Source: a bacterium | Lineage (GTDB): Bacteria; UBP6; UBA1177 | Length of the DNA: 52,961 nucleotides | Assembly: GCA_017538365.1 (NCBI GenBank) | Contig: JAFYIZ010000028.1 | Coordinates: 1 to 52,961, forward strand | Direction of reading: 5' to 3' | Shown here: positions 13,549 to 39,280 of the stretch, one piece after another | Layout: each line of letters starts with the position of its first letter | How positions within the stretch are numbered: position 1 is the stretch's first letter | Made by a program: the position numbers and the translations under genes | The notes under the pieces: model-generated | The model's input: only the letters and a program-made list of their open reading frames with translations | Databases searched by the model: none | Told to the model about the DNA's origin: nothing

Positions 13549-13550
13549 TC

Positions 13551-15245: not shown

Positions 15246-16474
15246 TGCCGCTTTTTGCCTACAAAATAGTCGATGCAAACGGCAAAGAGAAGAAAGGGAC
15301 GATCGAAAGTCCCAACAGGGCGGCAGTCAAAACGAAATTCCTTTCGGAAGGCTACTACATAACAGAAATCAGTGAAAAATCGCAGGCGCAGGGGTTCAGT
15401 CTCGATTTTTTGCGGAAAATGTTCTCTTTCGGCGCGAAAAAAGTTCCTCTTGATGAAGTTGCCTCTATGACAAGGCTTCTTGCCACGCTGCAGAAGGCGA
15501 AAATTCCTCTTGTTGAAGCAATTGACGCAGTCGCTCAGCAGCAGGAAAACCCGATTATGAAAGATGCCCTCATAATCATAAAAGGAAAGATGAACGAAGG
15601 TTACAGTTTTAGTAAAAGTGCACGTGAATTTCCCAATATTTTCGATGACTTATTCTGCAACATGATTGCAGCGGGAGAGGAGTCTGGCGCGACTGACAAA
15701 GTTTTAATGAGACTTGCCGGATTTATGGAATCGCAGGTTGACCTCAAAAACAAAGTCAAAAGCGCGATGACTTATCCTATCGTCCTCATGATCGTTGCAA
15801 TTCTGGTCGTCGGCGTCCTTTTCACGGTCGTAATCCCGAAACTTTCCAAAATGTTCGAAGATGTCAAGATGTCTCTGCCGATACAAACGAAGATACTTCT
15901 CTGGCTTTCGGGCTTCATTGGAAGCTGGTGGTGGCTCATCGCGCTCATGATTTTCGGCGGAGTAGTCGCTTTCAATAAGTACGTTAAAACTCCGAAAGGG
16001 GAAATCTGGTGGAGCAGAGTGAAAATCAACGCTCCTGTTCTGGGAAGAGTCAACAGACAGGTTGCAATCAGCCGTTTTGCACAGACTTTATCAACTCTTC
16101 TTCATTCAGGTGTTCCGATTCTTAACGCTCTCGACATTGTTAAGAAAATCATTGACAACAAGATCCTTGAAAATGCCGTCGGAGTTGCCCGCGAAAACAT
16201 CAAAGAGGGTGAATCGATAGCCGTTCCGCTCAAAAGAAGCGGTGAATTCCCGCCTATCGTCATTCAGATGATTGCAATCGGCGAGCAGAGCGGCGAACTT
16301 GAGGAAATGCTTGAAACTCTGGCTTCATCCTACGAAAAGGAAGTTACCTACACGATGGAAAAACTCACTTCGATGCTTGAACCGATGATGATTGTTGCAC
16401 TTGCAGGAGTCATCGGATTTATCGTTTTCTCGGTCGTCATGCCGATTCTGCAGCTCAACGACGCAGTCGGATAA
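15245..16474 (+). CDS. gspF: Type II secretion inner-membrane platform protein GspF
   Basis: A 409-residue platform protein with two repeated GspF domains (about residues 70-195 and 275-400), each followed by a membrane helix pair. The N terminus PLFAYKIVDANGKEKKGTIE is the standard opening of the family, and the repeat motifs MIAAGEESG and MIAIGEQSG are plain. It contacts GspE in the cytoplasm. The start overlaps the gspE stop by one base. No pseudopilin gene (gspG-K) or gspL/M follows; the next gene is smpB behind its own promoter, so the rest of the T2SS set lies elsewhere. Confidence 0.93.
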   Translation: MPLFAYKIVDANGKEKKGTIESPNRAAVKTKFLSEGYYITEISEKSQAQGFSLDFLRKMFSFGAKKVPLDEVASMTRLLATLQKAKIPLVEAIDAVAQQQENPIMKDALIIIKGKMNEGYSFSKSAREFPNIFDDLFCNMIAAGEESGATDKVLMRLAGFMESQVDLKNKVKSAMTYPIVLMIVAILVVGVLFTVVIPKLSKMFEDVKMSLPIQTKILLWLSGFIGSWWWLIALMIFGGVVAFNKYVKTPKGEIWWSRVKINAPVLGRVNRQVAISRFAQTLSTLLHSGVPILNALDIVKKIIDNKILENAVGVARENIKEGESIAVPLKRSGEFPPIVIQMIAIGEQSGELEEMLETLASSYEKEVTYTMEKLTSMLEPMMIVALAGVIGFIVFSVVMPILQLNDAVG

Positions 16475-22829: not shown

Positions 22830-24400
22830 TATTGTGCCTTGGTTTTAAAATCAATAATAATTCTCGCACCTTTGTCGGTGTTGACGGCTTTTACCGTGCC
22901 TCCGTGTTTGGTAACTATTCTGTAAACGAGAGCGAGTCCTAAGCCGGTTCCCCGCTTTTTGGTTGAGAAAAACGGGTCGAAAATCTTGTCGATATTTTTT
23001 TCATTGAAACCTGAACCTGTGTCGTCGAAGTAAAGCTTGAAAGAGTTGTCTGAAATTTCGGAAAATATGTCTATTTCACCCTCATCGTTCATTTCTTCCG
23101 CGCTGTTTGTCATTATGTTCCAGAAAACCTGTTTCAGCTTTTCGGCATCTCCCAGAACTGAAAACTCGTCTACTTTGCAGGTGATTTTGACTTTCGGATG
23201 ACCGAGTCTGAAAAGTGTTACGACGTCACGTAGAATCGAGCTCGGAACGCATTCCATCAAGGTGTAGGAAGTCTCTTCAGTGTACCTGAAAAGAGAGTCG
23301 AGCAGGGTTTTGACGCGCGTTCCTTCACGCCTGATGATGTCAATGAGTTCGGTCGTGTCAGATTCGGGCTGGATTTCCTGTATTTCGGAAAACATGAGTT
23401 CACTCGCTCCAATGAGGCTTGTGAGCGGATTTTTTATCTCATGGGCGATAGTTGCCGTGAGTTTTCCGATTGTCGCCAGCTTTTCCTGAAGTTCGAAACT
23501 TTCCTCCTGTTTCCTGATAGCCGTAAGATCAGAAAATATAACGACTTTCTGGTTTTCGATGTACGGCATTACCGTGTAGGAAAGCCATATTCCGTCAATT
23601 TTTTTCTCCGACCACGCGCCGTTTGAAGCGGTGTCTTTCGTTGCTTCGGCTAAGAATTTATCGAGAATGTTTTCAAATTGTTCCGCATATCTGTTTACGT
23701 AAAATTTTGTCGTTTCATCAAAAATAACGATACCGATGTTTATCTGCGAAAATATTGCGAAAAAGTGCTTTTCCATCTCTTTGTTTCTGCGCGTTGATTC
23801 GATCAGCGAACTGTTAGCCTGTCGGAAACTTTTCGTGATCCTGCTTGCTACGAAACCTGTGAAAGAGAAAAAGAGAAGATAGGTGAAAAGACGCGAAAAG
23901 TACGATTCCCACGAAGCGGAGTAGGTTTTCACAAGTTCTGAAGTTATTAGAGGAAGAAAGGAAAACTTAACGGAAACGCCTTGCAGAAGCAGAAGAAAGA
24001 AAGCGTAAAGCGTCGTGATTATAGCACCTTTTTCACGCATCAGAATGCCGGCATAAATGATGTTTATGATTATTACATAAAGGTATGGAGAACTTATGCC
24101 GCCGCTTATGTACGAAACCAGAACCCAGAACGTAATTTCTACGACGAACTGCAAATGCGCGAAAAGAGTCAGATATTTTTCACGAACGAATCGGCTGAAG
24201 ATTAGTGAAACGATGTTGAAAACGAGTAGAAAAAATGCCGAAAGGAGAAAAAGTTTGTTCGCAAAGGAAAAAATATCTGTGTTTTCACGAACGAAAGGAA
24301 AAAGGAAAAATGAAAATATAACAGTGAAAATGAAGAAAAAACGAATTATCAGATAGTAGTTCAGGTGATTGCGGAATTCGTCCGCCGAGAGAAGGTTCAT
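22829..24400 (-). CDS. pilS: Membrane sensor histidine kinase, PilS-like
   Basis: A 523-residue kinase. About six membrane helices occupy residues 15-190, the PilS layout without a large periplasmic domain. A PAS-like segment (about 205-295, with IGIVIFDETTKFYVN) follows. The HisKA phospho-acceptor is His320 in ATIAHEIKNPL. The ATP-binding boxes are N (Asn428 in WNIMTNSAEE), G1 (DDTGSGF), F (FDPFFSTK) and G2 (GTGLGLALVYRIV). It overlaps pilC by four bases and the regulator gene by one base, so the two-component pair is cotranscribed with the pilus motor genes. Confidence 0.88.
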   Translation of the reverse strand: MNLLSADEFRNHLNYYLIIRFFFIFTVIFSFFLFPFVRENTDIFSFANKLFLLSAFFLLVFNIVSLIFSRFVREKYLTLFAHLQFVVEITFWVLVSYISGGISSPYLYVIIINIIYAGILMREKGAIITTLYAFFLLLLQGVSVKFSFLPLITSELVKTYSASWESYFSRLFTYLLFFSFTGFVASRITKSFRQANSSLIESTRRNKEMEKHFFAIFSQINIGIVIFDETTKFYVNRYAEQFENILDKFLAEATKDTASNGAWSEKKIDGIWLSYTVMPYIENQKVVIFSDLTAIRKQEESFELQEKLATIGKLTATIAHEIKNPLTSLIGASELMFSEIQEIQPESDTTELIDIIRREGTRVKTLLDSLFRYTEETSYTLMECVPSSILRDVVTLFRLGHPKVKITCKVDEFSVLGDAEKLKQVFWNIMTNSAEEMNDEGEIDIFSEISDNSFKLYFDDTGSGFNEKNIDKIFDPFFSTKKRGTGLGLALVYRIVTKHGGTVKAVNTDKGARIIIDFKTKAQ

Positions 24401-25590
24401 CCGACAGCTTTACCCATGCTGAACATCGGCAGGTACATAGCGACCATCATCGTTCCGACGATGCCGCCGATTACGACCATGAGGATAGGCTCGATCATGC
24501 TGGTGAGACCGTCGACTGCGACATCGACTTCCTCTTCGTAGAAGTCTGCAATTTTATTGAGCATTGTATCCATAGCACCGGTTGCTTCACCGACACCGAT
24601 CATCTGAACGACCATCGATGGGAAAACTTTGGCTTCGGTAAGCGGGGTCGTCATGTCGCTTCCTTCGATAACTTTCTGTCTGACGAACATGATTGCCTTT
24701 TCAATCATCATGTTTCCTGAAGTTCTTGAAACAACTTCAAGACCGTCAACAAGCGGAACACCTGAACTTACGAGGGTTCCCAAAGTTCTCGTGAATCTTG
24801 CAACGGCAGATTTTCTGATGAGGTCGCCGACTACCGGAGCGTTGAGGGCGTATCTGTGGACGCCGAAACGGAATTTCGGGTTTTTCATTGCCGTTCTGAA
24901 TGCAATAACGATACCGACAAGTCCGCCGATTACGAAAAGGATGTTTGCCTGCATCCATTCACTCATATCAACGATAACCTGTGTTAGACCCGGTAGTTGC
25001 TGACCGTTGCTCATAAAGAGCTGTGCAAACGTAGGAACAACGTAGTAGAGAAGAACGATAGTGATTGCAATTGTTGCTGTGAGGACGATTGCAGGATATT
25101 TCATGGCACTTTTGATTTTCGCTGTTGTTGCAGCGTTTTTTTCAAGGAATATCGCAAGACGGTCAAGAATCGTATCCAGGATACCGCCGACTTCGCCTGC
25201 CGCGACGAGGTTGACGTAAAGGTCAGTAAAAACTTTGTGGTCTTTCAGTGAATCACTAAGCGATTTACCTTCTTCGACCGAGTTTTTGACCTTTCTCAAA
25301 ATGCTGCGGAAATAAGGCGTTTCCGACTGAGCGGCAAGGATTTCCAAGCCTTGGATAATCGAAAGACCGGCGTTGATCATGGTTGCGAACTGACGTGTAA
25401 AGATAACAAGCTCTTTCGGCTTCATTCCGCCGCCGCCGAGCTCTATTTTTGTCCAGTCCTTTTTCAGCGAGTCAATTCTGACACCTTGAGCCAATAAGGC
25501 TTGTCTTGCTCCTTTTTCATCATCGGCATCTATTGAGCCTCTGACTGTTTCGCCCTTTTTGTTGACACCGGCATACTTGTAAAAAGGCAT
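24397..25590 (-). CDS. pilC: Type IV pilus inner-membrane platform protein PilC
   Basis: A 397-residue protein of the GspF/PilC family with two repeated cytoplasmic domains (about residues 65-190 and 270-390) and membrane helices after each. Repeat motifs LVAAGEVGG and MIGVGEATG mark the two halves. It recruits the PilB and PilT motors. Assignment to the pilus rather than T2SS rests on the neighbours pilT and pilB and on the segment ELVIFTRQFATMINAGLSI, common in PilC. The ribosome-binding site GAGGAGG lies in the end of pilT, three bases away. Confidence 0.92.
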   Translation of the reverse strand: MPFYKYAGVNKKGETVRGSIDADDEKGARQALLAQGVRIDSLKKDWTKIELGGGGMKPKELVIFTRQFATMINAGLSIIQGLEILAAQSETPYFRSILRKVKNSVEEGKSLSDSLKDHKVFTDLYVNLVAAGEVGGILDTILDRLAIFLEKNAATTAKIKSAMKYPAIVLTATIAITIVLLYYVVPTFAQLFMSNGQQLPGLTQVIVDMSEWMQANILFVIGGLVGIVIAFRTAMKNPKFRFGVHRYALNAPVVGDLIRKSAVARFTRTLGTLVSSGVPLVDGLEVVSRTSGNMMIEKAIMFVRQKVIEGSDMTTPLTEAKVFPSMVVQMIGVGEATGAMDTMLNKIADFYEEEVDVAVDGLTSMIEPILMVVIGGIVGTMMVAMYLPMFSMGKAVG

Positions 25591-25593
25591 TTT

Positions 25594-26691
25594 TTACCTC
25601 CTCGTTTGGTTTGTTCTTGCGAGAATAGCCTGGAATTCGTCCAGATGCGGAACTAATGTCAAAGCATCTTCCATGCTGATGACATCGTTACGAACCAGTC
25701 TGGCGAGATCCTGCGTCATAGTCTGCATTCCGCTGTCGTTCTGGCCCGACTGCATGCTGGAATATATCTGCTGAAGCTTTTCTTCACGGATGAGGTTTCT
25801 GATAGCTGCGTTCGGAACCATGACTTCGCAGGCAATAACACGGCCTCCGCCGTATTTCTTCGGAATAAGCGTCTGTGCGACGATGCCCTGAAGAACGAAG
25901 CTGAGCTGTGCTCTGACCTGATTCTGCTGGTTTACGGGGAACATATCGATGATTCTGTTTATCGTTTCGATCGTGCTGTTCGTATGGAGCGTAGCAAGTG
26001 CAAGGTGACCTGTTTCAGAAACGCTGAGAGCAGTCGACATGGTCTCGATATCACGGATTTCACCGATGAGGACGATATCGGGGTCCTGCCTCAAAACAAC
26101 GCGGAGAGCCGATGCGAAAGAACCTGTATCGGCGCCGACTTCACGCTGGTTGACGATGCAGTTTTTATGCGAATGGATGAACTCGATAGGATCTTCGATC
26201 GTTACTATGTGTCCGTGACGGTTACGGTTGATGTAGTCGACCATCGAAGCAAGCGTTGTTGATTTTCCGCTTCCCGTCGGTCCTGTGACGAGAATAAGGC
26301 CTTTTGGTTTCTTTGCGAGTTCTTCAACTATCGGCGGAAGACCGAGCTGTCTGAAATCAAGGATTTTGTAGGGAATGACACGGATCGCGGCACTGACTGC
26401 GCCTCTCTGCATGAAGACGTTAGCTCTGAAACGGCTCAGATTTTTGACACCGAAGCTGAGGTCGAGTTCGTTCTTTTCCTCAAAAACCTTTTTCTGCTTT
26501 TCTGTCAGAATGCTGTATGCCAGCTTTTTTGTGTCTACCGGAGAGAGCGGCGGCACGTTTACCGGTCTCAGATTTCCGTCGATTCTGAGCTGAGGCGGTG
26601 AACCGCTGGTAATGTGAAGGTCGGATGCTCCCTGTTCAATCATCAGAGAGAGCAGATCCTGCAGAGAAACTGTAGCATTGGGATTTTCCAT
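25594..26691 (-). CDS. pilT: Type IV pilus retraction ATPase PilT
   Basis: A 365-residue ATPase that depolymerises pili for twitching. It starts with SLQDLLSLMIEQGASDLHITSGSPP, a classical PilT N terminus. Walker A is GPTGSGKSTT, Walker B DPDIVLIGEIRD, and the His box is LALATLHTNS. The C-terminal AIRNLIREEK, required for retraction in known PilT proteins, is intact, followed by IYSSMQSGQNDSGMQTM. It follows pilB by 11 bases. The zinc tetracysteine of PilB/GspE is absent, as expected. Confidence 0.95.
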   Translation of the reverse strand: MENPNATVSLQDLLSLMIEQGASDLHITSGSPPQLRIDGNLRPVNVPPLSPVDTKKLAYSILTEKQKKVFEEKNELDLSFGVKNLSRFRANVFMQRGAVSAAIRVIPYKILDFRQLGLPPIVEELAKKPKGLILVTGPTGSGKSTTLASMVDYINRNRHGHIVTIEDPIEFIHSHKNCIVNQREVGADTGSFASALRVVLRQDPDIVLIGEIRDIETMSTALSVSETGHLALATLHTNSTIETINRIIDMFPVNQQNQVRAQLSFVLQGIVAQTLIPKKYGGGRVIACEVMVPNAAIRNLIREEKLQQIYSSMQSGQNDSGMQTMTQDLARLVRNDVISMEDALTLVPHLDEFQAILARTNQTRR

Positions 26692-26702
26692 TTTTATACC
26701 TC

Positions 26703-28448
26703 TTATGCGTTTTCATCCGGTGCCGTGTTTCTTAAAACTTCGGCTATACTTGTCGTTCCTTCGAGAAGCCTCAAATTCGCACTCATTCTCATGGTTTTCA
26801 TACCGAGCTTTATAGCGAGCTCTTTGAGTTCCATCGAACTTGCGCCGTTAAGTATTGCGTCTTTCAAAGGATCGGTCATTTTCATAACTTCGTAAAAAGC
26901 GATACGGCCTTTGTAACCAGTACCGTTGCAGACTTCGCAGCCTTTACCCTGATAAATCTGGTAGCCGTCAGCAATCTGTTCTTCCTTGATTCCGAGTTTG
27001 AGCAGTTCCGATTTCGGCACATCAATCGGCTCTTTGCAGTTGTAGCATATCTTTCTGCCGAGTCTCTGCGCCATGATGCAGTTGACTGAAGAAGTGACAA
27101 GGAAACTTTCAACACCCATGTTGATAAGACGGGTGATAGTCGAAGGTGCGTCGTTTGTGTGGAGCGTACTCAAAACCATGTGACCCGTGATAGCAGCTTT
27201 TACCGCGATGTCGGCAGTTTCGAAGTCACGGATCTCACCGACCATCATGATATCGGGGTCCTGACGAAGGAATGAACGGAGCGCCGAAGCGAAGGTAAGA
27301 CCTACCTGCTCACGGATCGCAACCTGGTTGATACCTTCGAGGTTGAACTCGACAGGGTCTTCAGCCGTCGAAATGTTGACGTCCTCTTTGTTGAGGTCGG
27401 AAAGGGCAGAGTAAAGTGTCGTCGTTTTTCCCGAACCGGTAGGTCCCGTAACGAGCATCATTCCATAAGGTTTGTATATCGCTTCTTTGAAAATTTCGAG
27501 CTGATCGGGGAAGAAACCGAGCTTGGTCATATCGAGCTGAAGGTTGCTCTTATCGAGAAGTCGGAGAACGACTTTTTCACCGAAAATTACGGGGCAGACC
27601 GAAACACGGAAGTCCATGTCCTCGCCCTGACCGATTTTGATTTTAATACGACCGTCCTGAGGAATACGTTTTTCCGCGATATCGAGGTTCGCCATGACTT
27701 TGAGTCTGGCGACTATCGCATCCATCGTATTTCTCGGCGGATGAACGACGTCGTACAGGACACCATCCATTCTGAGACGGATTCTGAAGCTTTTTTCGTA
27801 AGGCTCAACGTGAATATCGGATGCTTTCTTCTTGATCGCGTCAAGCAGGACCATGTTGACGAAACGGATGACCGGCGCTTCTTCCGAGTTGCGGATCATG
27901 TCTTCGAGAGAAGTGCTTTCATCGAAATTGGTTTCACTCAGTTTGACGTCATCGGCTTCACTGAGAAGGGTTTCCATGTCAAAACTGATGTCGCCGTATT
28001 TTCTCTCTTCTTTTTTAGCCTGATCGCCGTAGTATTTTGTGATCGCCGCTTCGATATCGGTTGCCGAAGCGATTACGACTTCGACATTGTAGTCTGTCAG
28101 AAACTTGATGTCGTCCTGCGCGTTCATGTTCGAAGGATCGGCCATTGCGACAGTGAGAGTATTGCCTATTCTCGAAATCGGGATGACGTTGTAGCGCGTT
28201 ACTATCTGCTCATTGAGCAGGGCAATGACTTCAGGCTGAATTTCAAGCTCCGAAAGGTCTATCTTCGGAACGTTGTACTGCTCGCTGAGAATGTCGACAA
28301 GCTGATTTTCATTGAGTCTGTTTTCTTTGAAAAGTATGTCTTTTATGCTTTCTCCCGATTCAATCGAGAGTTCTTCGAGAGATTTCAGTTCCGGCAGGGA
28401 AATGATTCCTCTCTTTATCAGCATTCCTGTTAACTGTCTGTTGTTCAA
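26703..28448 (-). CDS. pilB: Type IV pilus assembly ATPase PilB
   Basis: A 581-residue extension motor. The N-terminal domain (about residues 1-150) opens with RQLTGMLIKRGIISLPELKSL. The catalytic half has Walker [11 protein letters not shown], Asp box STAEDPVEF, Walker B DPDIMMVGEIRD and His box [10 protein letters not shown]. Zinc cysteines are in CYNCKE and CEVCNGTGYKGR. The start is uncertain: GTG at 28460 has no ribosome-binding site, while TTG at 28448 lies six bases after GGAG, so the shorter form is given. A strong promoter lies at 28485-28512, making this the first gene of pilB-pilT-pilC-pilS-pilR. Confidence 0.92.
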   Translation of the reverse strand: MNNRQLTGMLIKRGIISLPELKSLEELSIESGESIKDILFKENRLNENQLVDILSEQYNVPKIDLSELEIQPEVIALLNEQIVTRYNVIPISRIGNTLTVAMADPSNMNAQDDIKFLTDYNVEVVIASATDIEAAITKYYGDQAKKEERKYGDISFDMETLLSEADDVKLSETNFDESTSLEDMIRNSEEAPVIRFVNMVLLDAIKKKASDIHVEPYEKSFRIRLRMDGVLYDVVHPPRNTMDAIVARLKVMANLDIAEKRIPQDGRIKIKIGQGEDMDFRVSVCPVIFGEKVVLRLLDKSNLQLDMTKLGFFPDQLEIFKEAIYKPYGMMLVTGPTGSGKTTTLYSALSDLNKEDVNISTAEDPVEFNLEGINQVAIREQVGLTFASALRSFLRQDPDIMMVGEIRDFETADIAVKAAITGHMVLSTLHTNDAPSTITRLINMGVESFLVTSSVNCIMAQRLGRKICYNCKEPIDVPKSELLKLGIKEEQIADGYQIYQGKGCEVCNGTGYKGRIAFYEVMKMTDPLKDAILNGASSMELKELAIKLGMKTMRMSANLRLLEGTTSIAEVLRNTAPDENA

Positions 28449-28484
28449 AAGCAACTCCACAAGCGGTTGTCATTCACCCGCGGC

Positions 28485-28609: not shown

Positions 28610-31600
28610 ATGAAAAAGTTTTTATCACTTTTGATTTTCCTGTTTCCCGTATTCCTTTTTGCCGTGATCGGTCAGAACGGTATTTCCATTGCTCCTGACG
28701 GCACTCTACTGAAATGGGATGAAGGAGCATGGGACTTCTTCATTATGCACAAATCTGTGCTGGAAAGAAGCTCTGAACACATTGCAGAAATAGATAACAA
28801 CGGAAACATAATTGATGACACTGCCAATCCGCAGGCAGACACTCTGGTTGACCCGACTATCGGTACAACTTATACGCTCACCTCAAAACATATTCCGCCT
28901 GATGCCGATGTTTCCAGAGCTTTTCTCATCTGGCTTGCTGATGTTGACCCGTACAAACTTGACGATCCGACAAAAAATTCGGTAACACTCACTTTCACGA
29001 ATGCGACAGATCCTACTATTACACTTTCTCAGGAAGTTAAGGCCAATATCCAGGGAGACCTTTCGAAAGACAATAAAGGCATGTTTGAATACGAAGCAGT
29101 TCGTGTTTCTGTTGAAGACGGTTATAAAGGGAATAACTTTTGTCCTAATGATACAGCTAATTATACCGGCGTTTACACCTATAGAGTCGAAGTTTCCGAC
29201 TTTATGAAAAAGATCATCCAGATGGGCGAAGAAAGAAACATGCAGCCAGGAGAAGCCCTTTACGGCGATTACAACGTCAAAGGGATCGAATCTTCCAACC
29301 ACTGCTACTACATGAAACAAAGCTCGATGGTAGGAGGCTGGGTGCTTCCTTTTGTTTATACTTCGTCGAATATCCGCGCTAAAAAAATTTATTTCTACCA
29401 CGGACTTGAAGCATATCAGCACAAAAACGCTTTAATAGCTGTCAACGGTTTCGAACTTCCAGATGAAGCGATAATCAGACTCGGTCTGGTCGATTTTGAA
29501 GGTGACCCCGGCAGAGCCAGAATGAGCAACGGTATTGCTACACTTCCTCCGGAAGGTCTTTCCATCAGCGGTTTTTCTGCTCCGAATGACTATAAGATTC
29601 TTTTCAACAATTGTAATCCGCCGAAAACCAAAGACAGTTCAGGTAACAATTTCAACTATACCGAAATTTACAACTCGATATCGTCAATCTTCGGCTGGCA
29701 GGATGAAACGGAAACATGCATCGGCAACCCTGACAATCCGCTTGATCCGGAAAAGCCGATAGAATACGCGATCGATGCTGATACTTTTGTCGTTGATTCA
29801 AGATTTCCGCCTTTCGACACGATGTTCCGTAAAGGCGACATGCAGTTCGGTCTCAAAATCGGCGCCAACCAGGATCAGATCTTCACGAATTTCCTCGTTG
29901 TCAGCGTTGACACGAGACCTCCGCAGTTTGATATTCCCGAAAACAGATTCACACCTAACGGAAGGGAAAAAGACTCTTGTTCCTGCGCAAAGGAAGCCGA
30001 CACGGTATGCATGGACAGACCTTTTTACTACACAATCAAAGTTCAGAACTGGGGTGAAGATACGGCTACCGGTGTAATGCTTCAGGACAAACTTCCTCCG
30101 CAAGTCGACTATGTTCCGGGAAGCACCGAAATCGCAACGAAAATCAACGAAGAAGGGCTTGGTACCGACTGGGAAACTGTTCCCGATGTTAACGGAAAAT
30201 TCCCGTTTGAAGAACCGAGAGTCGTCGCAGACATGCTTGAACACTGCAGACAAAGCGACTCGGTATGCGAACAGAGCGCATGGATAAGGTTTGTAGTAAG
30301 ACCGAAAGAAAACCTCGCGAAAAACGAAGTTATTAAAAATATGGCTTTTATCTCTTCAAATGAAACTGCCGGAGCTGTTTTCAACACGAACAGCAGTATT
30401 CCGCTCAGACTCAAAGGCGGTACGTGTCCGGCGATTTCCGAGTGCGAACTTCCGCCGAAAATGGAGTGCGGCGGCGTAAAAGTCGAAGGCAACGACAACT
30501 ACTGCACCAAAGATGAAGAGTGCGGAAACGGCAAAAAATGTATCGACAACGAATGTAAAGAAGATAGCTCGGCTAACCTTTCGAAAGGAGTCGAAGTAAC
30601 TTTCGGCGAAGGGGTAAACTCTCCTTCCAACGACGGTTCGGCGATACTTATTGATTCTGGCGAAGGAGTAGTTTTGGGTCAGTTCTACCTCGCAGCAGAC
30701 GGCAGCGAAGGCAAATTCTACAAATTCAACAAACTTATGGTCAAATTCAAAGCTGACAGCGACATCGAAGCTAAAAATTTCAAACTTTACAAGGATAACA
30801 ACAGCGACGGTAAGGTGAACGACGGCGACACGGAGATCTCTACGGCTGACTCGATAGCAGGTTCTTATGTAACCTTCAATGTCGGTGAAGCAAACAGACT
30901 TCTTTCGGCAAAAGGCAAAGTCAACTTCATCGTTACTACCGACGCATCAACGAATTCAGATTCACATCCCGGCAAATTCAGCATGACCATCGAAGGATCC
31001 GATTCATTCGAACTTGCAGATTCCGAAAAAATCGAAGCAAAAGGAAACTCGATACTCTTTGTTGAATATATGTTTGAACCGAAAGAAGGTTTCATAATCA
31101 CGAAAGGTTCCAACACTCCGGAAGTTCCCGCATACAAAGATTTCAACGGTGAACACGAAATGCTTCAGGTCAGAACCAAGTCGAAAGGAGCTGCAGACGC
31201 TGTAAATTCGATAACGCTCAAAACCCCGAATAACTATGTGAAATTCGGCGACGGAATCAAATCGGTTTCGGTTATTATCGACAAAGACAAGAACGGACGT
31301 CACTCGAACGGCGACGAAGTTATTGCGCAAATCAGCGATTTTGACGGATCGTCAACACTTGTCATCGATAACCTCGGCGATCTTCTCAAATACGAAAAGG
31401 ATGAGGAAAAATTCCTCGTCTTCAAAGTCGAATTCAAAATGTCGGTAGGCGAGAAGGCGAAGATCCAGGTTTCAGGCGTAAAAGTAAAGAGCGGCAATCC
31501 TGTAGTCGAACTTCCCGTATCGTCCAACGAATTCGCTTACGAATGCGACAGCTCTGACCCGAATATGTGTGCTGAAGACGACAGTGACGGCTGTGCTATA

Positions 31601-31705
31601 TCGGAACTCCCTGAAGACAACAGCTCGGTGCTTTATGTAGTTCTTGCAGCTTTGGTATCGCTCATCGCATTCGCTTTCGTAAAAGTTTACGGATTCAAAA
31701 AGTAA
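28610..31705 (+). CDS. Large secreted surface protein with DUF11-like domain and Gly-Cys/membrane-helix C-terminal tail (paralogue 1)
   Basis: A 1031-residue protein. The frame is open from 28520, but the ATG at 28610 has GGAGG before it and starts a clean signal peptide (MKKFLSLLIFLFPVFLFA). Residues 20-430 resemble the N-terminal region of DUF11-type surface proteins (GGWVLPFVYTSSN, KKIYFYHGLEAY). A DUF11-like repeat is near 460-530 (FYYTIKVQNWGEDTATGVML). A short Cys module (YCTKDEECGNGKKC) follows, then a region with Ca-loop-like DNNSDGKVNDGD and DKDKNGRHSNGDE. The C terminus is DGCAIS, a linker, one membrane helix and GFKK. Such a tail resembles MYXO-CTERM sorting signals. Function probably adhesion or surface coating; paralogue at 32010-35030. 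Confidence 0.85.
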   Translation: MKKFLSLLIFLFPVFLFAVIGQNGISIAPDGTLLKWDEGAWDFFIMHKSVLERSSEHIAEIDNNGNIIDDTANPQADTLVDPTIGTTYTLTSKHIPPDADVSRAFLIWLADVDPYKLDDPTKNSVTLTFTNATDPTITLSQEVKANIQGDLSKDNKGMFEYEAVRVSVEDGYKGNNFCPNDTANYTGVYTYRVEVSDFMKKIIQMGEERNMQPGEALYGDYNVKGIESSNHCYYMKQSSMVGGWVLPFVYTSSNIRAKKIYFYHGLEAYQHKNALIAVNGFELPDEAIIRLGLVDFEGDPGRARMSNGIATLPPEGLSISGFSAPNDYKILFNNCNPPKTKDSSGNNFNYTEIYNSISSIFGWQDETETCIGNPDNPLDPEKPIEYAIDADTFVVDSRFPPFDTMFRKGDMQFGLKIGANQDQIFTNFLVVSVDTRPPQFDIPENRFTPNGREKDSCSCAKEADTVCMDRPFYYTIKVQNWGEDTATGVMLQDKLPPQVDYVPGSTEIATKINEEGLGTDWETVPDVNGKFPFEEPRVVADMLEHCRQSDSVCEQSAWIRFVVRPKENLAKNEVIKNMAFISSNETAGAVFNTNSSIPLRLKGGTCPAISECELPPKMECGGVKVEGNDNYCTKDEECGNGKKCIDNECKEDSSANLSKGVEVTFGEGVNSPSNDGSAILIDSGEGVVLGQFYLAADGSEGKFYKFNKLMVKFKADSDIEAKNFKLYKDNNSDGKVNDGDTEISTADSIAGSYVTFNVGEANRLLSAKGKVNFIVTTDASTNSDSHPGKFSMTIEGSDSFELADSEKIEAKGNSILFVEYMFEPKEGFIITKGSNTPEVPAYKDFNGEHEMLQVRTKSKGAADAVNSITLKTPNNYVKFGDGIKSVSVIIDKDKNGRHSNGDEVIAQISDFDGSSTLVIDNLGDLLKYEKDEEKFLVFKVEFKMSVGEKAKIQVSGVKVKSGNPVVELPVSSNEFAYECDSSDPNMCAEDDSDGCAISELPEDNSSVLYVVLAALVSLIAFAFVKVYGFKK

Positions 31706-31748
31706 TCACGAAATAATCTTCAATTTCACAATCTCTAAATCTACAAAT

Positions 31749-31795
31749 CCCTAAACACCCTAAGCTCCCTAAGCTCCTTCAGCTCCCTAATAGCT
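31749..31795. repeat. Degenerate 9-bp tandem repeat
   Basis: Units CCCTAAACA, CCCTAAGCT, CCCTAAGCT, CCTTCAGCT and CCCTAATAGCT follow each other directly. The second and third are identical. A similar CTCTAAAT word lies just before the array. Confidence 0.7.
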
Positions 31796-31821
31796 GACAG
31801 GGTGCTCCAGTCAATTTTCAG

Positions 31822-31852
31822 GGCAGGCTAGAAGCCTCCTGAAAAGCCTGCC
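31822..31852. repeat. Inverted repeat, possible terminator stem
   Basis: GGCAGGCT (31822-31829) pairs perfectly with AGCCTGCC (31845-31852) around a 15-base loop. No U-tract follows on either strand, so a rho-independent terminator is possible but not typical. Confidence 0.45.
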
Positions 31853-31893
31853 TGCAGAAACTCTGTGGAGCTGGATCAATGGATCGGAATCAG

Positions 31894-31965
31894 ATGTCTG
31901 ATTGGATAGTGATGTCTGATTGGATAGTGATGCCTGATTGGATAGTGATGCCTGAATGGTGACGA
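31894..31965 (+). repeat. 18-bp tandem repeat, three full units and one partial
   Basis: Units start at 31894, 31912 and 31930 with the sequence ATG(T/C)CTGATTGGATAGTG; a diverged fourth begins at 31948. Units 1 and 2 are identical and unit 3 differs by one base. Because 18 is a multiple of three, the array is open in one frame, encoding repeats of MSDWIV inside a 27-codon frame (31879-31962) that has GGAG eight bases before its ATG. Confidence 0.85.
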
Positions 31966-32009
31966 TTTTGATTAGTTGGAAAATTTATGATTGGAAAAGA
32001 GTTGGGAAA

Positions 32010-35000
32010 TTATTTTTTGGAAGTGAAAACTTTGACGCCTGCAAGAGCAAGAAGTGCTGCGAATGCTGCGAAAACAAGGTAGAGCATGTTGTTGCTTTCT
32101 TCAACTGCTGAAATTGCACAGCCGCTGCCTTCATCATCGCCTGAACCGCATGAATTCGGATCGGTCGGGTCGCATTCATAAGCGAATTCCTTCGAAGAAA
32201 CAGGCGTTCCTACAGCCTTTCCGGAACCTACTTTTACATCTTGAACAGTGATTTTTGCTTTTTCGCCGTCAGACATCTTGAACTCAACTTTGAAAAGCAG
32301 GAATTTTTCTTCGTTTTCAGCGTATTGAAGCAGATCGTCAAGATTTTCGAAGGTCATCGAAGTGGTGCTTTCGAAAGTGTCAACCTTTTGAAGTACAGTG
32401 TCTCCTGCCGACTGGATACCGTCGCCGTCTCTGTCGAGAATGAGGGAGATGGATTTGATGCCTTCGCCGAATTTTGCATAACTGCTGGAGATTTTGACTT
32501 TGATTGTTTTGATCTTGTCTGCAGCGCCTTTTGATTTTGTTCTAGCCTGAAGGATTTCGTGTTCGCCGTTGAAATTTTTGTATGAGGGAACCGGAGGATC
32601 CATCTGTCCTTTTGTGAAAATGAAGCCCTCAAGAGGTTCGAATCTGAATGTCGCGAAGTCGATTCTCTTGCCGTTTACGGTGATATTTCCGCCTGCTTTG
32701 AGAGTGAATGCTTCAGGGCTCTCTATAATCAGGTTAAATTTTCCGGGCTGACCGGTTGTTGTCGTCGTTTCAACATCGGCTGTTACTATGAAGTAGTTCT
32801 TGTCAGCAGTCGTAATGGCTCTGTTAGCCTCGTCCATAGTGGAGAATACGATGAAAGATGAGTTCTGGAGAGAATCTGCAGAAGATACTACCACGTCGCC
32901 TTCATCGACTTTGCCGTTTCCGTTGTTGTCTCTGTAAAGTTTGAAGTTCGCCGCTTTGACATCATTGTCTTTGTAAAGTTTGAACTGAGCTTTGAGCAAA
33001 TCGTAGGTTTTACCTTTATCTCCGTCGGAAAGAAGGTAGAACTGACCGAGAACGAGATCGGTTTTCGGAGATTCGATAAGTATTTCGTTCGAGTCGCCGC
33101 TTCCCGGGCTGTCTTTGCCCATATCGTAAGAAACGTTCAAATCCTGAGTCGTCTGATTGTTGCCGCCTTCAAGAACGCATTCGTTGTTTACGCATTTTTT
33201 GCCGTCTTTGCAGTCTTTGTCTTCTGCACAGTAGCTGTCGTTGCCTTCGATTCTTACACCGCCGCACTGAGCTTTCGGAGGAAGTTCACATTCAGCTATA
33301 GTCGGGCATTTTCCGAGTTTGAGTCTGAGCGGAATGTTGCTGTTCGAATTGTACGGCATATTGTCGCCGGTGATTACGGCCGTATTTCTGATAACTTCGT
33401 TCTTCGAAAGGTTTGCTTTCGGTTTGACTTGGAATCTTACCCAGAAACCTTCGCTGCAGTAATCAGGCTCGTTGAGTTTGTCGCAGTGCTGCGTCATAAC
33501 ATCGGTAAGCATCTGTGCGGTAGCATACGGGAATCCGCCGTTGATATCTTCAACTTTTGTCCAGTCTGTTCCTAAGCCGTTTGCATCGAATTTTGTTGCG
33601 ATTTCAGTTGATCCCGGAACATAGTCGACCTGAGCCGGAAGTGTATCCTGAAGCATTACGTTACCGGCCTGGTTTTCACCCCAGTTCTGGATTTTGATTG
33701 TGTAGTAGAAAGGTCTGTCTGCACAAACTGCATCTGCATCAGTCGAGCATGAGCAGTAATCTTTTTCTCTGCCGTTCAGGGTTTTCGGGTTTTCCGGAAT
33801 ATCGAATTTCGGAGCTTTCGTATCAACGCTGACGATAAGAATGTTGGTGTAAACCTGATCCTGGTTTGCGCCGATCTGAAGATTGATCGCGGTATCGCCT
33901 TTGTTGAATTGTCCATAGAAAGGACCGGTAGGACCTGAGTCGACAAGAAGAATATCTGAATCAATACCGTATTCAAGCGGACTCGACGGATCAGCCAGAT
34001 TGTTCGGGTTGCCGACGCACCAGTAATTTTCGCTGTCTTCCCAACCGAAAACCGATGAAATCGAGTTGTACATTTCGGTGTAAGAACCCATATTGGGATT
34101 GCAGTTGTTGAAAAGAGGTGCAAAATTGTTGGGATTAAGCTGACTGCTTATTGCAAGACCTTCCATGTGAGAGAAGAGCATCGAATACAATCCCGGGTCG
34201 CCTTCAAAAACAACGAGACCGAGTTTGATGACTGCTTCAGCCGGAAGTTCAAAACCTGAAACCGTGATAAGCTGCGAAGCGTCTCTGTATGCAGCAAGAC
34301 CGTTGTAGAAGTAGATTTTCTTCGGGTTGATGTGTGCCGAAGTGTAGACAAAAGGCATAAACCAGCCGCCTACAAGACCGCTTGTCGTAAGGTAGTTCTG
34401 GTGGTTCGAGCACTCCATACCTTTTACATTGTAGTTACCGTAAAGAGCTTCGCCGGAGTTCATACCCTCAGCTTCACCCATTCTGATGATTTCTTTCATG
34501 AAGTCGGAAACTTCGACTCTGTATGTGAAAACGCCGGTGTTTCCTGTCTGCGTATCAGGCATATTGAGAGCTTCGTATTCAAAGTTGCCGATAGTGGTCG
34601 TTGCAAGGTTGCCCTGAAATGAAGCGGTGATTTCTCTTGAAAGAGTGATATTCGGATTTGCCGCGTTTGTGAAAGTAAGCGTTACCGAGTTGTCCGTCGG
34701 ACCGTTCAGATTGTCCGGATCCTGAGTCGAAAGCCATACGAGGAAAGCTCTGTCAATGTCGGCATCCGGCGGAATGTGTTTCATTTCAAGTGTATAAGTT
34801 GAACCGATTTCCTGTTCAATGCAGGTATCTGCCTGCGGGTTGCCGGCTGTTGTGCTGGCTTCTCCGGTTACCTGTTTAATTAAGGATTTGTGCATGATAA
34901 AGAAGTCCCACGCACCTTCCTCCCATTTGAGTATAGTGCCGTCAGGAGCTTGTGAAATACCGTTTTCACCGAGTGCTGCGAAGAGCATTACCGGAACAAA

Positions 35001-35030
35001 AACCATAAAAACGAGTAAGAATTTTTTCAT
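32010..35030 (-). CDS. Large secreted surface protein with DUF11-like domain and Gly-Cys/membrane-helix C-terminal tail (paralogue 2)
   Basis: A 1006-residue paralogue of the protein at 28610-31705 with the same domain order. The N-terminal sequences are almost alike (GENGISQAPDGTILKWEEGA against GQNGISIAPDGTLLKWDEGA). Signal peptide 1-19 is followed by the DUF11-type N-terminal region, a DUF11-like repeat (FYYTIKIQNWGENQAGNVML), the Cys module (YCAEDKDCKDGKKC), EF-hand-like DNNGNGKVDEGD and DRDGDGIQSAGD, and the tail SGCAIS, linker, membrane helix, TSKK. The ATG at 35030 follows GGAGG by five bases; the GTG two codons upstream overlaps that site. Strong promoter at 35065-35092. Confidence 0.87.
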   Translation of the reverse strand: MKKFLLVFMVFVPVMLFAALGENGISQAPDGTILKWEEGAWDFFIMHKSLIKQVTGEASTTAGNPQADTCIEQEIGSTYTLEMKHIPPDADIDRAFLVWLSTQDPDNLNGPTDNSVTLTFTNAANPNITLSREITASFQGNLATTTIGNFEYEALNMPDTQTGNTGVFTYRVEVSDFMKEIIRMGEAEGMNSGEALYGNYNVKGMECSNHQNYLTTSGLVGGWFMPFVYTSAHINPKKIYFYNGLAAYRDASQLITVSGFELPAEAVIKLGLVVFEGDPGLYSMLFSHMEGLAISSQLNPNNFAPLFNNCNPNMGSYTEMYNSISSVFGWEDSENYWCVGNPNNLADPSSPLEYGIDSDILLVDSGPTGPFYGQFNKGDTAINLQIGANQDQVYTNILIVSVDTKAPKFDIPENPKTLNGREKDYCSCSTDADAVCADRPFYYTIKIQNWGENQAGNVMLQDTLPAQVDYVPGSTEIATKFDANGLGTDWTKVEDINGGFPYATAQMLTDVMTQHCDKLNEPDYCSEGFWVRFQVKPKANLSKNEVIRNTAVITGDNMPYNSNSNIPLRLKLGKCPTIAECELPPKAQCGGVRIEGNDSYCAEDKDCKDGKKCVNNECVLEGGNNQTTQDLNVSYDMGKDSPGSGDSNEILIESPKTDLVLGQFYLLSDGDKGKTYDLLKAQFKLYKDNDVKAANFKLYRDNNGNGKVDEGDVVVSSADSLQNSSFIVFSTMDEANRAITTADKNYFIVTADVETTTTTGQPGKFNLIIESPEAFTLKAGGNITVNGKRIDFATFRFEPLEGFIFTKGQMDPPVPSYKNFNGEHEILQARTKSKGAADKIKTIKVKISSSYAKFGEGIKSISLILDRDGDGIQSAGDTVLQKVDTFESTTSMTFENLDDLLQYAENEEKFLLFKVEFKMSDGEKAKITVQDVKVGSGKAVGTPVSSKEFAYECDPTDPNSCGSGDDEGSGCAISAVEESNNMLYLVFAAFAALLALAGVKVFTSKK

Positions 35031-35118: not shown

Positions 35119-37686
35119 TTAATCGACCGTGATAAGCGAACAGCCGCTGCTGTCTTTTTTCAACGGTCTTATGCAGGTGTTTTCCGTGCCGCATATCAGT
35201 CCGGCATTGCAGGTGTGGTCGGGATAGCATTCACCGTTGTATTCGCCTTGATTTTTCCCTGAACCGGTATTGTCGGAATCATCAGATTTTTTGTAAACAC
35301 AAGTGTGGTTCTCGCAGACAAGACCTTCGTCACAGGTATTGTCAGGATAACACGGACCGTTGTATTCGCCGGGCTGGATGTCGCTGCCGTATTCAATGTC
35401 GTCATCGGGATTTTCATCGGAATCATCATTGTCATTTTCTCCGCCGCCGGCGCAGGTGCTTGTGTCGTAGCCTGTGCAGTCGTAGTTGCAGAAGGCTGTT
35501 CCGTTCGTGAAGCTGTCGTCGATTTCGGTGCACGGTTTGTAATCGCCGTCGCACTCTTCGCCTTCTTCCTTTACATCATTTCCGCAGCTTGGATCGGTGT
35601 CGGTTCCTTTCGGAAGGATTTTGTCGTCAATGCATGCGTAACCTTCGCGGATTTCGTTGTAATCGCATTTCGCGATGCACTGTCCTTCGTAGCATTCAAC
35701 TTTGCTGTTTCCGTTGTAGCAGTCTTTGTTTTTCGTGCATGCTGCCGTGCAGTATCCTCCTTTCCAACCTGTGATACATTCAGGATTTGCCGCAGTGTTT
35801 ATGCACTCGGAAACAGTTGAACATGCGTCTCCCGCTTTTCCGGTTCCGCCGTTTTCACAGTTGTTGTCTACGATTCCGTCACAGTCGTCATCTCTGTCGT
35901 AGTAATTACCGAAGCAGCCGTCAACCGGAGCTGTTGCTATACATTCAGGGCATGTTCCGTCTTTGGCAGCACTTACCATTGCGTTTGCGTCAACGATACC
36001 GAATCCGAAGCAGGGTGAGTGTTCTTTCGATCCGCTTGCGAGCCATTCGTCGCTCTGTGTTGCCCAGGAGCCTTCGGAACAGTTTTCTGAAGGTTTGCGG
36101 GCCTGGGATTTTACGCAGTTCATCGCTCCGGAAAATACGAAATTCGGATTTGCTGCAAGCATGAGTGCTACAGTCCCCGCAGCAACCGGTGTCGCCGCGC
36201 TGGTTCCGCTCATTCCGCTTGTGTAGTCGCCTTTGCTGTCAAGACTGCCGTAAAGGTTGTTTCCGTAGCCTTTGTAGGCATATCCGTACTGGGTTCCCTG
36301 AATGTCGGTCGTGCTGTTTCCCGCACCGGCAGAGATATCGATTTCTGCACCGTAATTGGAGTAGCCTTCCATAGTGTCGTCATCTCCGAGTGCGCTTACG
36401 GTGAGAAAATCGTTGTCTTTGAGGAAACCGTTCAGGCTTGTGTCGCAGTGAGAGTTTCCTGCAGCCCAGAGGAAAATCGTTCCTTTGCCGTTTCTGCCGT
36501 TTTTTCTGCCGAAATCGACAGCTTGAGAAGTGCTGTTGTCGGCAGGAGTTTCAATGCAGTTGTAGTTGTCGTCCACATCTTCGGCTCCCCAGCTGTTGCT
36601 TACAACCCATGCACCGTTGTCTACGGCATATTTGATTGCGTTATATGTGGAATTGATGTTCAACATCTGACTTTCATCCTCGTAGTCATCCGGAATAACT
36701 CTTATCGGAATAATCGGGCATCCCCAGCATGTCGCCGCGACGCCGGCACCGTTGTTGGTTTTTGCCGCAGCCAGGCCTGCACATGCCGTCCCGTGCGGAA
36801 CTCCGTAACGGTCGTCGCCGTTTTTTTGGGTGTTCGGTGCACCGCCCAAATTACCGCCGATGAAGTCTTCGCCGAGATCGGTCAGGATGTTGAGATCAGG
36901 GTGGGTGAGATCGACGCCCGTATCGACGATTGCTATTCTGACGTCTTTGCCGCTGGCGGTTTCGATATCCCACGCTTCAGGTGCGTTGATCTGAGTTAAA
37001 TGCCACTGATCTTCAAAATAAGGGTCATTCGGAGTCGTTGACATTGGAACAAAGTGCCATAGCCAGTTCGGCTGTGCCCAGCGGACATACTGCCTTTCAA
37101 AAAGTGAATTGGCTATTGCGAAAGGATCAGAGCCTGCCGGAAGCGAAACTGTGTAGAAATTATTCTCTTCGTCAACGATTTCAACAACTTTAAGTCCGTA
37201 AATATTCAGAATTCTTTCCTGCTCGTCTTTGTCTGTGTGTTTCGAAAAAACGAGGTTTATCGTTCCGTCCAGAACTACGGGCGAGTTTTTCGCGTGGTAG
37301 GTGAGTACCGGCCATGCTTCTATGCCGTTTTTCGCAAGAATGTTGCGCACCTGAATCCAGTTTTTGCGGTCGGATTTGTCAAGATTGATTTTGAAAGCCC
37401 TGAAATTCTGAGCATCGAAGGTAACATGCGAAATCATATCGGAAAATTTGATTCCGTTGAACCTGATGTCCCGCAGACTATTCAGATTCGCCGAATGCGG
37501 AATCGCGATTTCGTCGTATTTCTGCAGCAGATACTGCGGTTCCCCGTCCATGTGATAGTAAAAAGTGTCGTAAAGCCTGCTGTTTCTTTCTATGAGTTTG
37601 CCTAAAACCGGTTTTTGAAGGTGTGATTCCTCCGCAAATAAAACAAATGAAAAACAGAGCAGAAAAGGAATCAGGACTTTTTTCAT
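35119..37686 (-). CDS. Secreted subtilisin-like (S8) serine protease with Cys-rich C-terminal modules
   Basis: An 855-residue precursor. Signal peptide 1-18, then a propeptide-like region to about 215. The S8 catalytic domain spans about 230-560, with Asp255 (AIVDTGVDL), His298 (HGTACAGLAA), oxyanion Asn411 (WAAGNSH) and Ser496 (MSGTSAATP), so it should be active. The rest is Cys-rich: a MopE-like DRDDDCDGIVDNNC segment, modules such as NKDCYNGNSKVEC, and two direct copies of an EYNG-x-CYPD-x-TC-x-GL-x-C unit near the end. It stops at SGCSLITVD, without a membrane helix. The ATG at 37686 has GAGAGGAAA before it; the frame is open 29 codons upstream into the preceding gene. Confidence 0.92.
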   Translation of the reverse strand: MKKVLIPFLLCFSFVLFAEESHLQKPVLGKLIERNSRLYDTFYYHMDGEPQYLLQKYDEIAIPHSANLNSLRDIRFNGIKFSDMISHVTFDAQNFRAFKINLDKSDRKNWIQVRNILAKNGIEAWPVLTYHAKNSPVVLDGTINLVFSKHTDKDEQERILNIYGLKVVEIVDEENNFYTVSLPAGSDPFAIANSLFERQYVRWAQPNWLWHFVPMSTTPNDPYFEDQWHLTQINAPEAWDIETASGKDVRIAIVDTGVDLTHPDLNILTDLGEDFIGGNLGGAPNTQKNGDDRYGVPHGTACAGLAAAKTNNGAGVAATCWGCPIIPIRVIPDDYEDESQMLNINSTYNAIKYAVDNGAWVVSNSWGAEDVDDNYNCIETPADNSTSQAVDFGRKNGRNGKGTIFLWAAGNSHCDTSLNGFLKDNDFLTVSALGDDDTMEGYSNYGAEIDISAGAGNSTTDIQGTQYGYAYKGYGNNLYGSLDSKGDYTSGMSGTSAATPVAAGTVALMLAANPNFVFSGAMNCVKSQARKPSENCSEGSWATQSDEWLASGSKEHSPCFGFGIVDANAMVSAAKDGTCPECIATAPVDGCFGNYYDRDDDCDGIVDNNCENGGTGKAGDACSTVSECINTAANPECITGWKGGYCTAACTKNKDCYNGNSKVECYEGQCIAKCDYNEIREGYACIDDKILPKGTDTDPSCGNDVKEEGEECDGDYKPCTEIDDSFTNGTAFCNYDCTGYDTSTCAGGGENDNDDSDENPDDDIEYGSDIQPGEYNGPCYPDNTCDEGLVCENHTCVYKKSDDSDNTGSGKNQGEYNGECYPDHTCNAGLICGTENTCIRPLKKDSSGCSLITVD

Positions 37687-37696
37687 TGTTTCCTCT

Positions 37697-39280
37697 CTAT
37701 TGACTTTGGATGTTGTACTTTTCAATAATGCAGTTGTGAACTTTTGTATCTTTGTCGTAATTGACTCCGACAAGAAGCAGGTTGTCCAGATAATTTTCGA
37801 AAACTTTCGGATAATTTTTGTTTTTGATCTGCTTTATTGCCGTGTCTGCATCATGATTGCATTTTAGCTCGATAATCATTGCAGGATCTTTTTTGTCGAG
37901 CGGAATGAAACCGATATCTGCAAAACCGTAACCTGACGGAAGTTCCTGAATTATCGTGTATTTTGTGCGTGCTGTGTAAAATGCCAGCATAATCGCAGCT
38001 TGCAGCGATGCCTCGCGGTTATAATTTTTAAGGCTTGAAACTTCAGAATGGGCACTATCCAGAGCAGCCGCAACTTCATCAGCCGCACCATCCTGCACAA
38101 GTCTGAGTAATTCTTCTGAATCCTTAATCATTTCAGCTATTTTTGAGAAATTTTCCGCCACTTTTATAGCTTTTTCCCACTCTTGCCTGATTTCTTTATT
38201 CGGAATACGGCAGGTTCTATTGTCGGAATTATAATTCAGATAGCCGAGATGAATAAGGTATGCAAGAACGTTGTCTTTAGTATTTATTTTATCCAATGAG
38301 TTTTCAAAATCTTCAACATCAGCTCTGATTTCTCTTCCGGCAAGCATGTCGGCAATCGCGCTTTTCGTGCCGTCGAAATCTAATCTGATATAATCTGAAA
38401 CAACTTCATAAGAGCCGGTTGCATTCCAATAGTTCGCATATCTTCTCCGCATCATAGCTTCGACAACGGAATTAGGGTTGTAAATATCAAATTCACCGAT
38501 TTCGTAACCGTCGTACCAGTTTTCACACTCTTCAAAACTCATGCTGTATTTGTTGCAGAGAGATTCCGTTTCTTCTTTCGTGAATCCGAAAAATTCGGCA
38601 CTCCAAGCAGGCGCAAGCATTGTATATTCTTTAAAATTGTTGAGTTTAGACTGCACTCTGTCCCGCTGAATCGGAAGAATGCCGGTGAGATATGCAAGGG
38701 CGATTGCAGGAGAAAGTTCGTTGTTCTTAAACAGGGAATTTAAGAAGGAACGGTATTCTTCAAGAAGGGCATCATTCTGGCGTTCTCTAATCAAAGTGTC
38801 ATATTCATCAATGATTATAATGAATTGAGTTTTTGTCTGTTTGAAAACTTTTATTATCAGATCTGCAACGGAATCTTTTTCTGAAAATTTTATGTCAGGA
38901 AATTCATCTTTGAAATCTTCAATAAATTTGTCTCTAAGATTTTTCAAGACATTGTTTCTGTTTTCCGTCATATTGAAAATAGCACCGAAATCGACAGTCA
39001 GAACATTGAATTTGTTAAGATTTTCTTCAAAACACGGATCGTTGGCGATTTTCAGATTTGAAAACATTTCCCTGGAATCGCAGCCTTTTGAAAAATAGGC
39101 TTTCATCATATTGCCGATCATTGATTTCCCGAAACGGCGCGGTCTCGAAACGCACATAAAACATTGCTCTGTGTTCAACAACCTGCTGATTCTGCTGATA
39201 AACATTGATTTATCAACGAAAATTTCAGAGTTGACAGCCTTTTTAAAATTCTCATTTCCAGGATTAATGTAAATTCCCAT
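37697..39280 (-). CDS. AAA-ATPase-like protein with C-terminal PD-(D/E)XK nuclease domain (DUF1703 type)
   Basis: A 527-residue protein of the family with an N-terminal AAA-ATPase-like domain and a C-terminal PD-(D/E)XK nuclease-like domain. The N terminus shows FVDKSMFISRI and the P-loop-like SRPRRFGKSMIGNMM (about residues 44-58). Walker B-like IIIIDEYDTLI is near 155-165. The nuclease part has ADIGFIPLDKKDPAMIIELK, with Asp and E-x-K in place, about residues 450-475. These genes are often multicopy in gut Bacteroidetes, spirochaetes and fibrobacters; their role is unknown, with mobile-element or defence functions suggested. GGAGG precedes the ATG. The protease gene begins 11 bases after its stop. 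Confidence 0.88.
   Translation of the reverse strand: MGIYINPGNENFKKAVNSEIFVDKSMFISRISRLLNTEQCFMCVSRPRRFGKSMIGNMMKAYFSKGCDSREMFSNLKIANDPCFEENLNKFNVLTVDFGAIFNMTENRNNVLKNLRDKFIEDFKDEFPDIKFSEKDSVADLIIKVFKQTKTQFIIIIDEYDTLIRERQNDALLEEYRSFLNSLFKNNELSPAIALAYLTGILPIQRDRVQSKLNNFKEYTMLAPAWSAEFFGFTKEETESLCNKYSMSFEECENWYDGYEIGEFDIYNPNSVVEAMMRRRYANYWNATGSYEVVSDYIRLDFDGTKSAIADMLAGREIRADVEDFENSLDKINTKDNVLAYLIHLGYLNYNSDNRTCRIPNKEIRQEWEKAIKVAENFSKIAEMIKDSEELLRLVQDGAADEVAAALDSAHSEVSSLKNYNREASLQAAIMLAFYTARTKYTIIQELPSGYGFADIGFIPLDKKDPAMIIELKCNHDADTAIKQIKNKNYPKVFENYLDNLLLVGVNYDKDTKVHNCIIEKYNIQSQ

Follow-up and report, generated by a model that had tools for sequence, protein, structure and literature searches.

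What holds two large exported proteins of an uncultured UBP6 lineage at the cell surface, and which enzyme would process their C-terminal ends, is the question raised by contig JAFYIZ010000028.1 of assembly GCA_017538365.1. We analyzed its full 52,961 nucleotides (hereafter, the window), which form contig 27 of a 2.32 Mb genome (G000) that is 97.6% complete. Protein A (1031 aa; positions 28610–31705, + strand, ATG at 28610) and protein B (1006 aa; 32010–35030, − strand, ATG at 35030) are 56% identical over their full length and convergent, with C-termini about 300 bp apart, in agreement with the initial annotation, which had described two paralogous proteins of ~1000 residues arranged tail to tail. 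Both begin with a signal peptide, of the signal peptidase I (SPI) type in A, and both have beta-rich ectodomains with a DUF11-type repeat. Both end, as also described there, in GCAIS, a short linker, a single hydrophobic helix, and KK. The tail of A is GCAISELPEDNSSVLYVVLAALVSLIAFAFVKVYGFKK (31589–31702, +), supported by paralog comparison, a tail profile, and homolog alignment, and that of B is GCAISAVEESNNMLYLVFAAFAALLALAGVKVFTSKK (32013–32123, −), supported by the first two. An AlphaFold model of A places a helix at residues 1006–1027 and leaves the rest of the tail disordered. Tail residues Gly994 and Cys995 are invariant across 17 homologs, and the flanking residues vary. Homologs were drawn from ruminant-gut and other metagenome assemblies. 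A structure search with A returned low-score beta-sandwich matches at best (e.g., integrins and Gram-positive adhesins), and the two proteins may be adhesin-like surface proteins. We propose, with a probability of about 0.58, that these tails would serve as C-terminal anchoring signals in a pathway of the myxosortase type, restricted to one UBP6 order and with two substrate formats: the helix tail of A and B and a helix-free short tail. One conserved Rce1-like membrane protease likely handles both.

The initial annotation had described the helix tail in A and B and had likened it to MYXO-CTERM tails, except that it lacks the usual Arg cluster; the tail is not limited to these two proteins. A profile built from 20 tails of this genome and its relatives, in all of which the cysteine is invariant, recovered six proteins of the genome at E ≤ 1.7 × 10−12 and nothing further below E = 0.08. 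Because six strong matches are followed by such a gap, the helix tail is not a chance resemblance. Besides A and B, the six include three further proteins of ~1000 aa and a collagen-like DUF7151 protein of 410 aa. In a set of 28 phylum genomes (25 of the order and three of a sister order), helix tails number 3–8 per genome within the genus, 0–4 in the rest of the order, and 0 in the sister order, with the qualification that the profile draws mostly on a single family, so that low counts in distant families may reflect under-detection. The basic end is KK or RK in A, B, and their close relatives, and RR in some distant members alone. None of the NCBIfam sorting-tail models matches A or B, and the MYXO-CTERM model TIGR03901 has no match anywhere in the genome at E ≤ 10. 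The Cys-helix-basic layout and the absence of an Arg cluster are as first described, but the resemblance does not extend to membership in MYXO-CTERM; the comparisons support a variant Cys-helix-basic class distinct from it. Helix-tailed homologs of ~1000 aa with a single TGA interruption also occur (G011 contig 68, L205; G010 contig 187) and could be pseudogenes, assembly errors, or cases of recoding.

Of greater interest is a helix-free, CaaX-like class of tails that begins with the gene adjoining B. This gene (35119–37686, − strand, ATG at 37686) encodes a subtilase (Peptidase_S8) with a signal peptide and two Cys-rich modules, which ends in ...SSGCSLITVD; it shares Gly-Cys with A and B, and its short tail GCSLITVD (35119–35145, −) is followed by a stop codon, with no helix downstream in any frame. 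The same gene, with position kept and a nearly identical end, occurs in three further loci (L011, L012, and L022), and related species have the short ends GCSALLF, GCSALIF, GCSALVL, and GCSVSTF. A frameshifted or truncated helix tail was rejected as an explanation because no helix lies downstream in any frame, either here or in 12 other short-tailed genes, and because the short end is maintained from species to species. In G000, at least 18 exported proteins of full length end in G-C-[SA] plus four (sometimes five) mostly hydrophobic residues, including GCSMLFI, GCSVTVF, GCSVVVM, GCALTLI, GCSLIVL, and GCSITTL, a lower bound obtained from a DNA pattern and the reading of targeted stretches short of the last contigs.

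The initial DNA pattern was Gly-Cys-[Ser/Ala] followed by an early stop, and a stricter pattern was used for counts against a reversed-pattern control. The stricter pattern gave 14 matches versus 0 for the control in G000, and 299 versus 5 in the 25 genomes of the order (totals summed by hand). The three sister-order genomes had 0–1 match each, and in a sample of 386 genomes from across Bacteria, none of the 365 outside the order had more than five matches, near the control level. The reversed-pattern control and these outside genomes rule out chance, and since the excess over control lies within the order and counts outside it are at chance level, the short-tail signal is real and, in this sample, confined to one order. 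Helix-free tails outnumber helix tails and end five or six residues past the cysteine. Orphan short-tail coding ends with no open frame attached (e.g., SKSDGCSMLFV followed by a stop) were also seen on G000 contigs 3, 35, and 40 (L077, L078, L115, and L118); they are leftovers of a gene family, decayed or recombining, that encodes small secreted proteins and has intact members ending in GCSMLFI.

The relationship between the two formats is visible in proteins that have exchanged them. On contig 25 of a related genome (G017), tandem collagen-like DUF7151 paralogs end one in the helix form, ...TSSSTGCSMTEADDDHGWIAAAFAMIAVLAAAVIKFARR, and the other in the short form, ...AAANSGCSLTIL; their G000 counterpart aligns to the short-form paralog through ...TGCSLNTV. 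The N-domain of A shares 57% identity with that of a short-tailed protein ending in GCSALLF, and homology links the C-terminal half of A to a G000 protein ending in GCSLLFVD. These alignments show that the formats have been naturally swapped between tandem paralogs, and by the same comparison the element common to both is Gly-Cys-[Ser/Ala]-hydrophobic. The swaps also bear on an alternative in which both tails are anchors or targeting signals and the protease processes helix tails alone; the short tail would then be a separate signal, for example a PDZ ligand of GspC or of a periplasmic protease, and the shared Gly-Cys would be coincidental or ancestral. The short tail does, like a PDZ ligand, present a hydrophobic last residue at a fixed distance, the GspC encoded in the window has a PDZ-like C-terminal region, and one family of the order (f3) has many short tails and few or no detected helix tails. 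However, the first residues past Gly-Cys are identical in both formats and tandem paralogs swap formats at the same place. Some short tails, moreover, end in Asp or Glu six residues past the cysteine (SLITVD, SVLTVE, and SALMID), and in one family the tail extends eleven residues past it. The invariant cysteine and the exclusion of lipoboxes described below would also be left unexplained, and we regard a separate short-tail signal as unlikely.

The proteins that bear short tails are otherwise unrelated. They include subtilases, C25 peptidases of the gingipain type, amidases, a protein resembling metallophosphatases, and small proteins that match no Pfam family. In 75 distinct tails ending five residues past the cysteine, the residue after Gly-Cys is Ser (62) or Ala (13), and the positions that follow hold Leu/Val/Met/Ile, Leu/Thr/Val/Ile, Val/Phe/Leu/Ile, and Ile/Leu/Phe, a composition that arises partly by selection, as the pattern required Ser/Ala and restricted the second bases of codons; the unbiased measure is the number of matches relative to the control. 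The stretch preceding Gly-Cys is acidic and rich in lysine and serine. Among short-tailed proteins with a visible N-terminus, a simple rule finds an SPI-type signal peptide in 62 of 63 and a lipobox in none (0 of the 62 with a signal peptide). Untailed open reading frames in the same stretches comprise 47 lipoproteins and 157 SPI proteins (Fisher p = 1.6 × 10−6 versus the short-tailed proteins), where the background includes some spurious reading frames and the proteins are interrelated, so that p-values are indicative. These predicted N-termini show the short tail and N-terminal lipidation to be mutually exclusive. A Cys-rich module (GEL..ECYPD.TC..GL.C) lies 31–75 residues from the start in many N-terminal lipoproteins, near the lipidated cysteine, and 37–48 residues from the end in tailed proteins, near Gly-Cys, a placement suggestive of a stalk close to the membrane at the anchored terminus; it was seen in G000 loci L055–L064 and at 35119–35400 in the window.

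Many tailed proteins are rich in cysteine, and a Cys-rich module often precedes the tail. Both observations favor a reading in which the tail cysteine forms a disulfide, within the protein or to a partner, so that the tail is a structural end cap and the helix of the long form a plain membrane anchor. Yet 43 of 62 short-tailed proteins have an even number of cysteines outside the tail (p = 0.003, a significance inflated by kinship: eleven share a count of 22 and appear to be one family), as do 29 of 43 lipoproteins when the lipidated cysteine is excluded. Because the remaining cysteines are mostly even in both groups, the tail cysteine seems to be the one left over. The disulfide would also leave the hydrophobic end, the fixed length, and the lipobox exclusion unexplained, and we judge it quite improbable.

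The candidate processing enzyme is a 214-aa CPBP/Rce1-like protease, the only CPBP protein of G000, encoded on contig 35 (L001:1174–1818). It matches PF02517 at 52.2 bits (gathering score 22.4), and its best NCBIfam matches are myxosortases: MrtP (1.8 × 10−23), MrtC (1.4 × 10−22), and Mrt_core (5.7 × 10−22). All 12 aligned homologs match Mrt_core (NF040914) at E ≤ 0.001, and the motifs EExxxRG, FxxxH, and HxxxN are intact in 12 of 12, with E123, E124, R128, F158, H162, H199, and N203 invariant. The protease is modeled with seven helices at a pLDDT (predicted local distance difference test) of 90; MrtX has likewise been reported as a seven-helix protein (PMC11980579). Every genome of families f1 and f2 of the order has exactly one CPBP/Rce1-like protease, and genomes of family f3 carry this type together with another, different CPBP protein, except for G005 (65% complete), in which the second type alone was found. 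This second protein (L208–L211 and L165) is unrelated and carries an atypical SCP(A/S)QEFLYRG motif.

A rhombosortase, a myxosortase, or an exosortase-like protease had been suggested as the processing enzyme at the outset, and of these the search yielded the myxosortase-like protein. Two outcomes that the initial annotation had named as refuting, a tail restricted to A and B and the lack of a co-occurring candidate enzyme, were checked and did not refute its reading. Exosortase (PF09721) has no match in any of the 28 phylum genomes. Rhomboids, one or more per genome, occur in 26 of the 28, but the sole rhomboid of G000 scores 23.2 bits against a rhombosortase cut-off of 84 (TIGR03902), and exosortase and rhombosortase are ruled out on these grounds. 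A generic rhomboid or some other protease might still cleave the tails, the Rce1-like protein having an unrelated role as other CPBP proteins do. The wide presence of rhomboids would fit this, as would the sister order, which has an Rce1-like protease without tails; the rhomboid score and the lack of an exosortase speak against it, as does the fact that the nearest matches of the Rce1-like protein are proteases that pair with Cys-containing tails. We consider cleavage by another protease decidedly unlikely.

In the myxosortase-type pathway that we propose, proteins would be exported by Sec through an ordinary signal peptide, as is consistent with 62 of the 63 N-termini above. The Gly-Cys-[Ser/Ala]-hydrophobic motif would be recognized on the periplasmic side of the inner membrane and kept in place by the helix and basic end or, in the short form, by four or five mostly hydrophobic residues alone. 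The tail cysteine would be lipidated, and the 214-aa protease would cut on its C-terminal side, releasing the helix or the short peptide in the way that Rce1 clips -aaX off a CaaX box. The protein, by then folded, would cross the outer membrane by a type II secretion system (T2SS) and stay attached through its lipid. Processing after the cysteine and a lipid upon it appear most likely because of the analogy with MrtX; in Myxococcus, cleavage by MrtX requires the tail cysteines and export proceeds through the T2SS (Guo, Haft and Wall 2025, PMC11980579). From this analogy we infer cleavage, lipidation, the pairing of protease and tail, and T2SS export, and the surface location of the tailed proteins is putative. 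The initial annotation noted the dependence of MYXO-CTERM proteins on a T2SS, and the window contains a candidate exporter, an operon of gspC, gspD, gspE, and gspF (9970–16474, + strand), where GspC_delta and GspD score above their curated cut-offs and the best matches of GspE and GspF lie just under theirs. The most specific part of the proposal, that exported proteins carry a helix-free CaaX-like box that is lipidated on its cysteine and trimmed by a bacterial Rce1 homolog also accepting the helix form, we hold tentatively, at somewhat less than even odds.

Several points weigh against this pathway. The main weakness is the sister order (f4; G001–G003), which has a similar myxosortase-like protease with an EEFFYRG motif (L177, L178, and L207) and in which the pattern, the profile, and a ~240-kb sample of one genome all failed to reveal a tail. 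Strict co-occurrence of enzyme and tail therefore failed as proof of their pairing: the processing enzyme expected from the initial annotation has a single-copy candidate closest to the myxosortases, but not a distribution that matches the tails. The protease also falls under every curated myxosortase cut-off (77.8 versus 100 bits for Mrt_core), with the MrtJ and MrtS models below theirs as well, and because of these scores we call it, from its sequence, myxosortase-like rather than a myxosortase. Its gene is not adjacent to the tail genes. A structure search of the PDB with the protease gave no meaningful match and recovered no Rce1 structure, and its sequence profile matched no PDB chain. 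Lastly, the helix-free tail offers no evident route to an intramembrane protease.

Two other neighbors were noted in the window. The type IV pilus genes pilB, pilT, and pilC (24397–28460, − strand) lie immediately upstream of A and form a second set of paralogs besides gspE and gspF of the T2SS (13551–16474). A 527-aa protein (37697–39280, −) adjoins the subtilase; it has no NCBIfam match and by eye appears AAA-ATPase-like with a PD-(D/E)XK-type C-terminus.

Prokaryotic C-terminal sorting signals are defined by a motif, a helix, and a basic end, and to our knowledge all of those described so far need the transmembrane helix. If our proposal is true, the helix is dispensable, and proteases of the Rce1 type can act on short boxes resembling CaaX on the outer side of the membrane. 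The format swaps found in nature isolate the shared Gly-Cys-Ser/Ala-hydrophobic part, and therefore questions of the myxosortase field, namely what modifies the cysteine and whether cleavage requires that modification, would become testable with very small substrates. The tails also give a handle on the surface proteome of an uncultured rumen lineage, including proteases, amidases, and adhesin-like proteins.

Among known systems, the closest are the myxosortase pairs, of which Haft 2024 is reportedly the founding paper. With MYXO-CTERM and MrtX, MrtC, and MrtP, the UBP6 system shares a motif with an invariant cysteine, a helix, a basic end, an SPI signal peptide, a T2SS, and a CPBP protease bearing the core motifs of myxosortases. 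It differs in that its tails lack a TIGR03901 match and end mostly in Lys rather than Arg, the host belongs to UBP6 rather than Myxococcota, the protease scores under the curated cut-offs, and most of the tailed proteins have no helix. Synerg-CTERM/MrtS, JDVT-CTERM/MrtJ, and CGP-CTERM/MrtA are Cys-containing C-terminal tails, each with a CPBP protease and all with a transmembrane helix; their tail models are unmatched by the proteins scanned here. GlyGly-CTERM/rhombosortase shares a tripartite C-terminal signal coupled to surface retention through a T2SS, but its motif is Gly/Ser without an invariant cysteine, and no rhombosortase was found in G000. The eukaryotic CaaX box and Rce1 offer the likeness for the short tails: a C-terminal cysteine with a few aliphatic residues and no helix after it, together with an Rce1-like glutamate protease. 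Five or six residues follow the cysteine here, whereas three do in CaaX, and the UBP6 proteins are exported.

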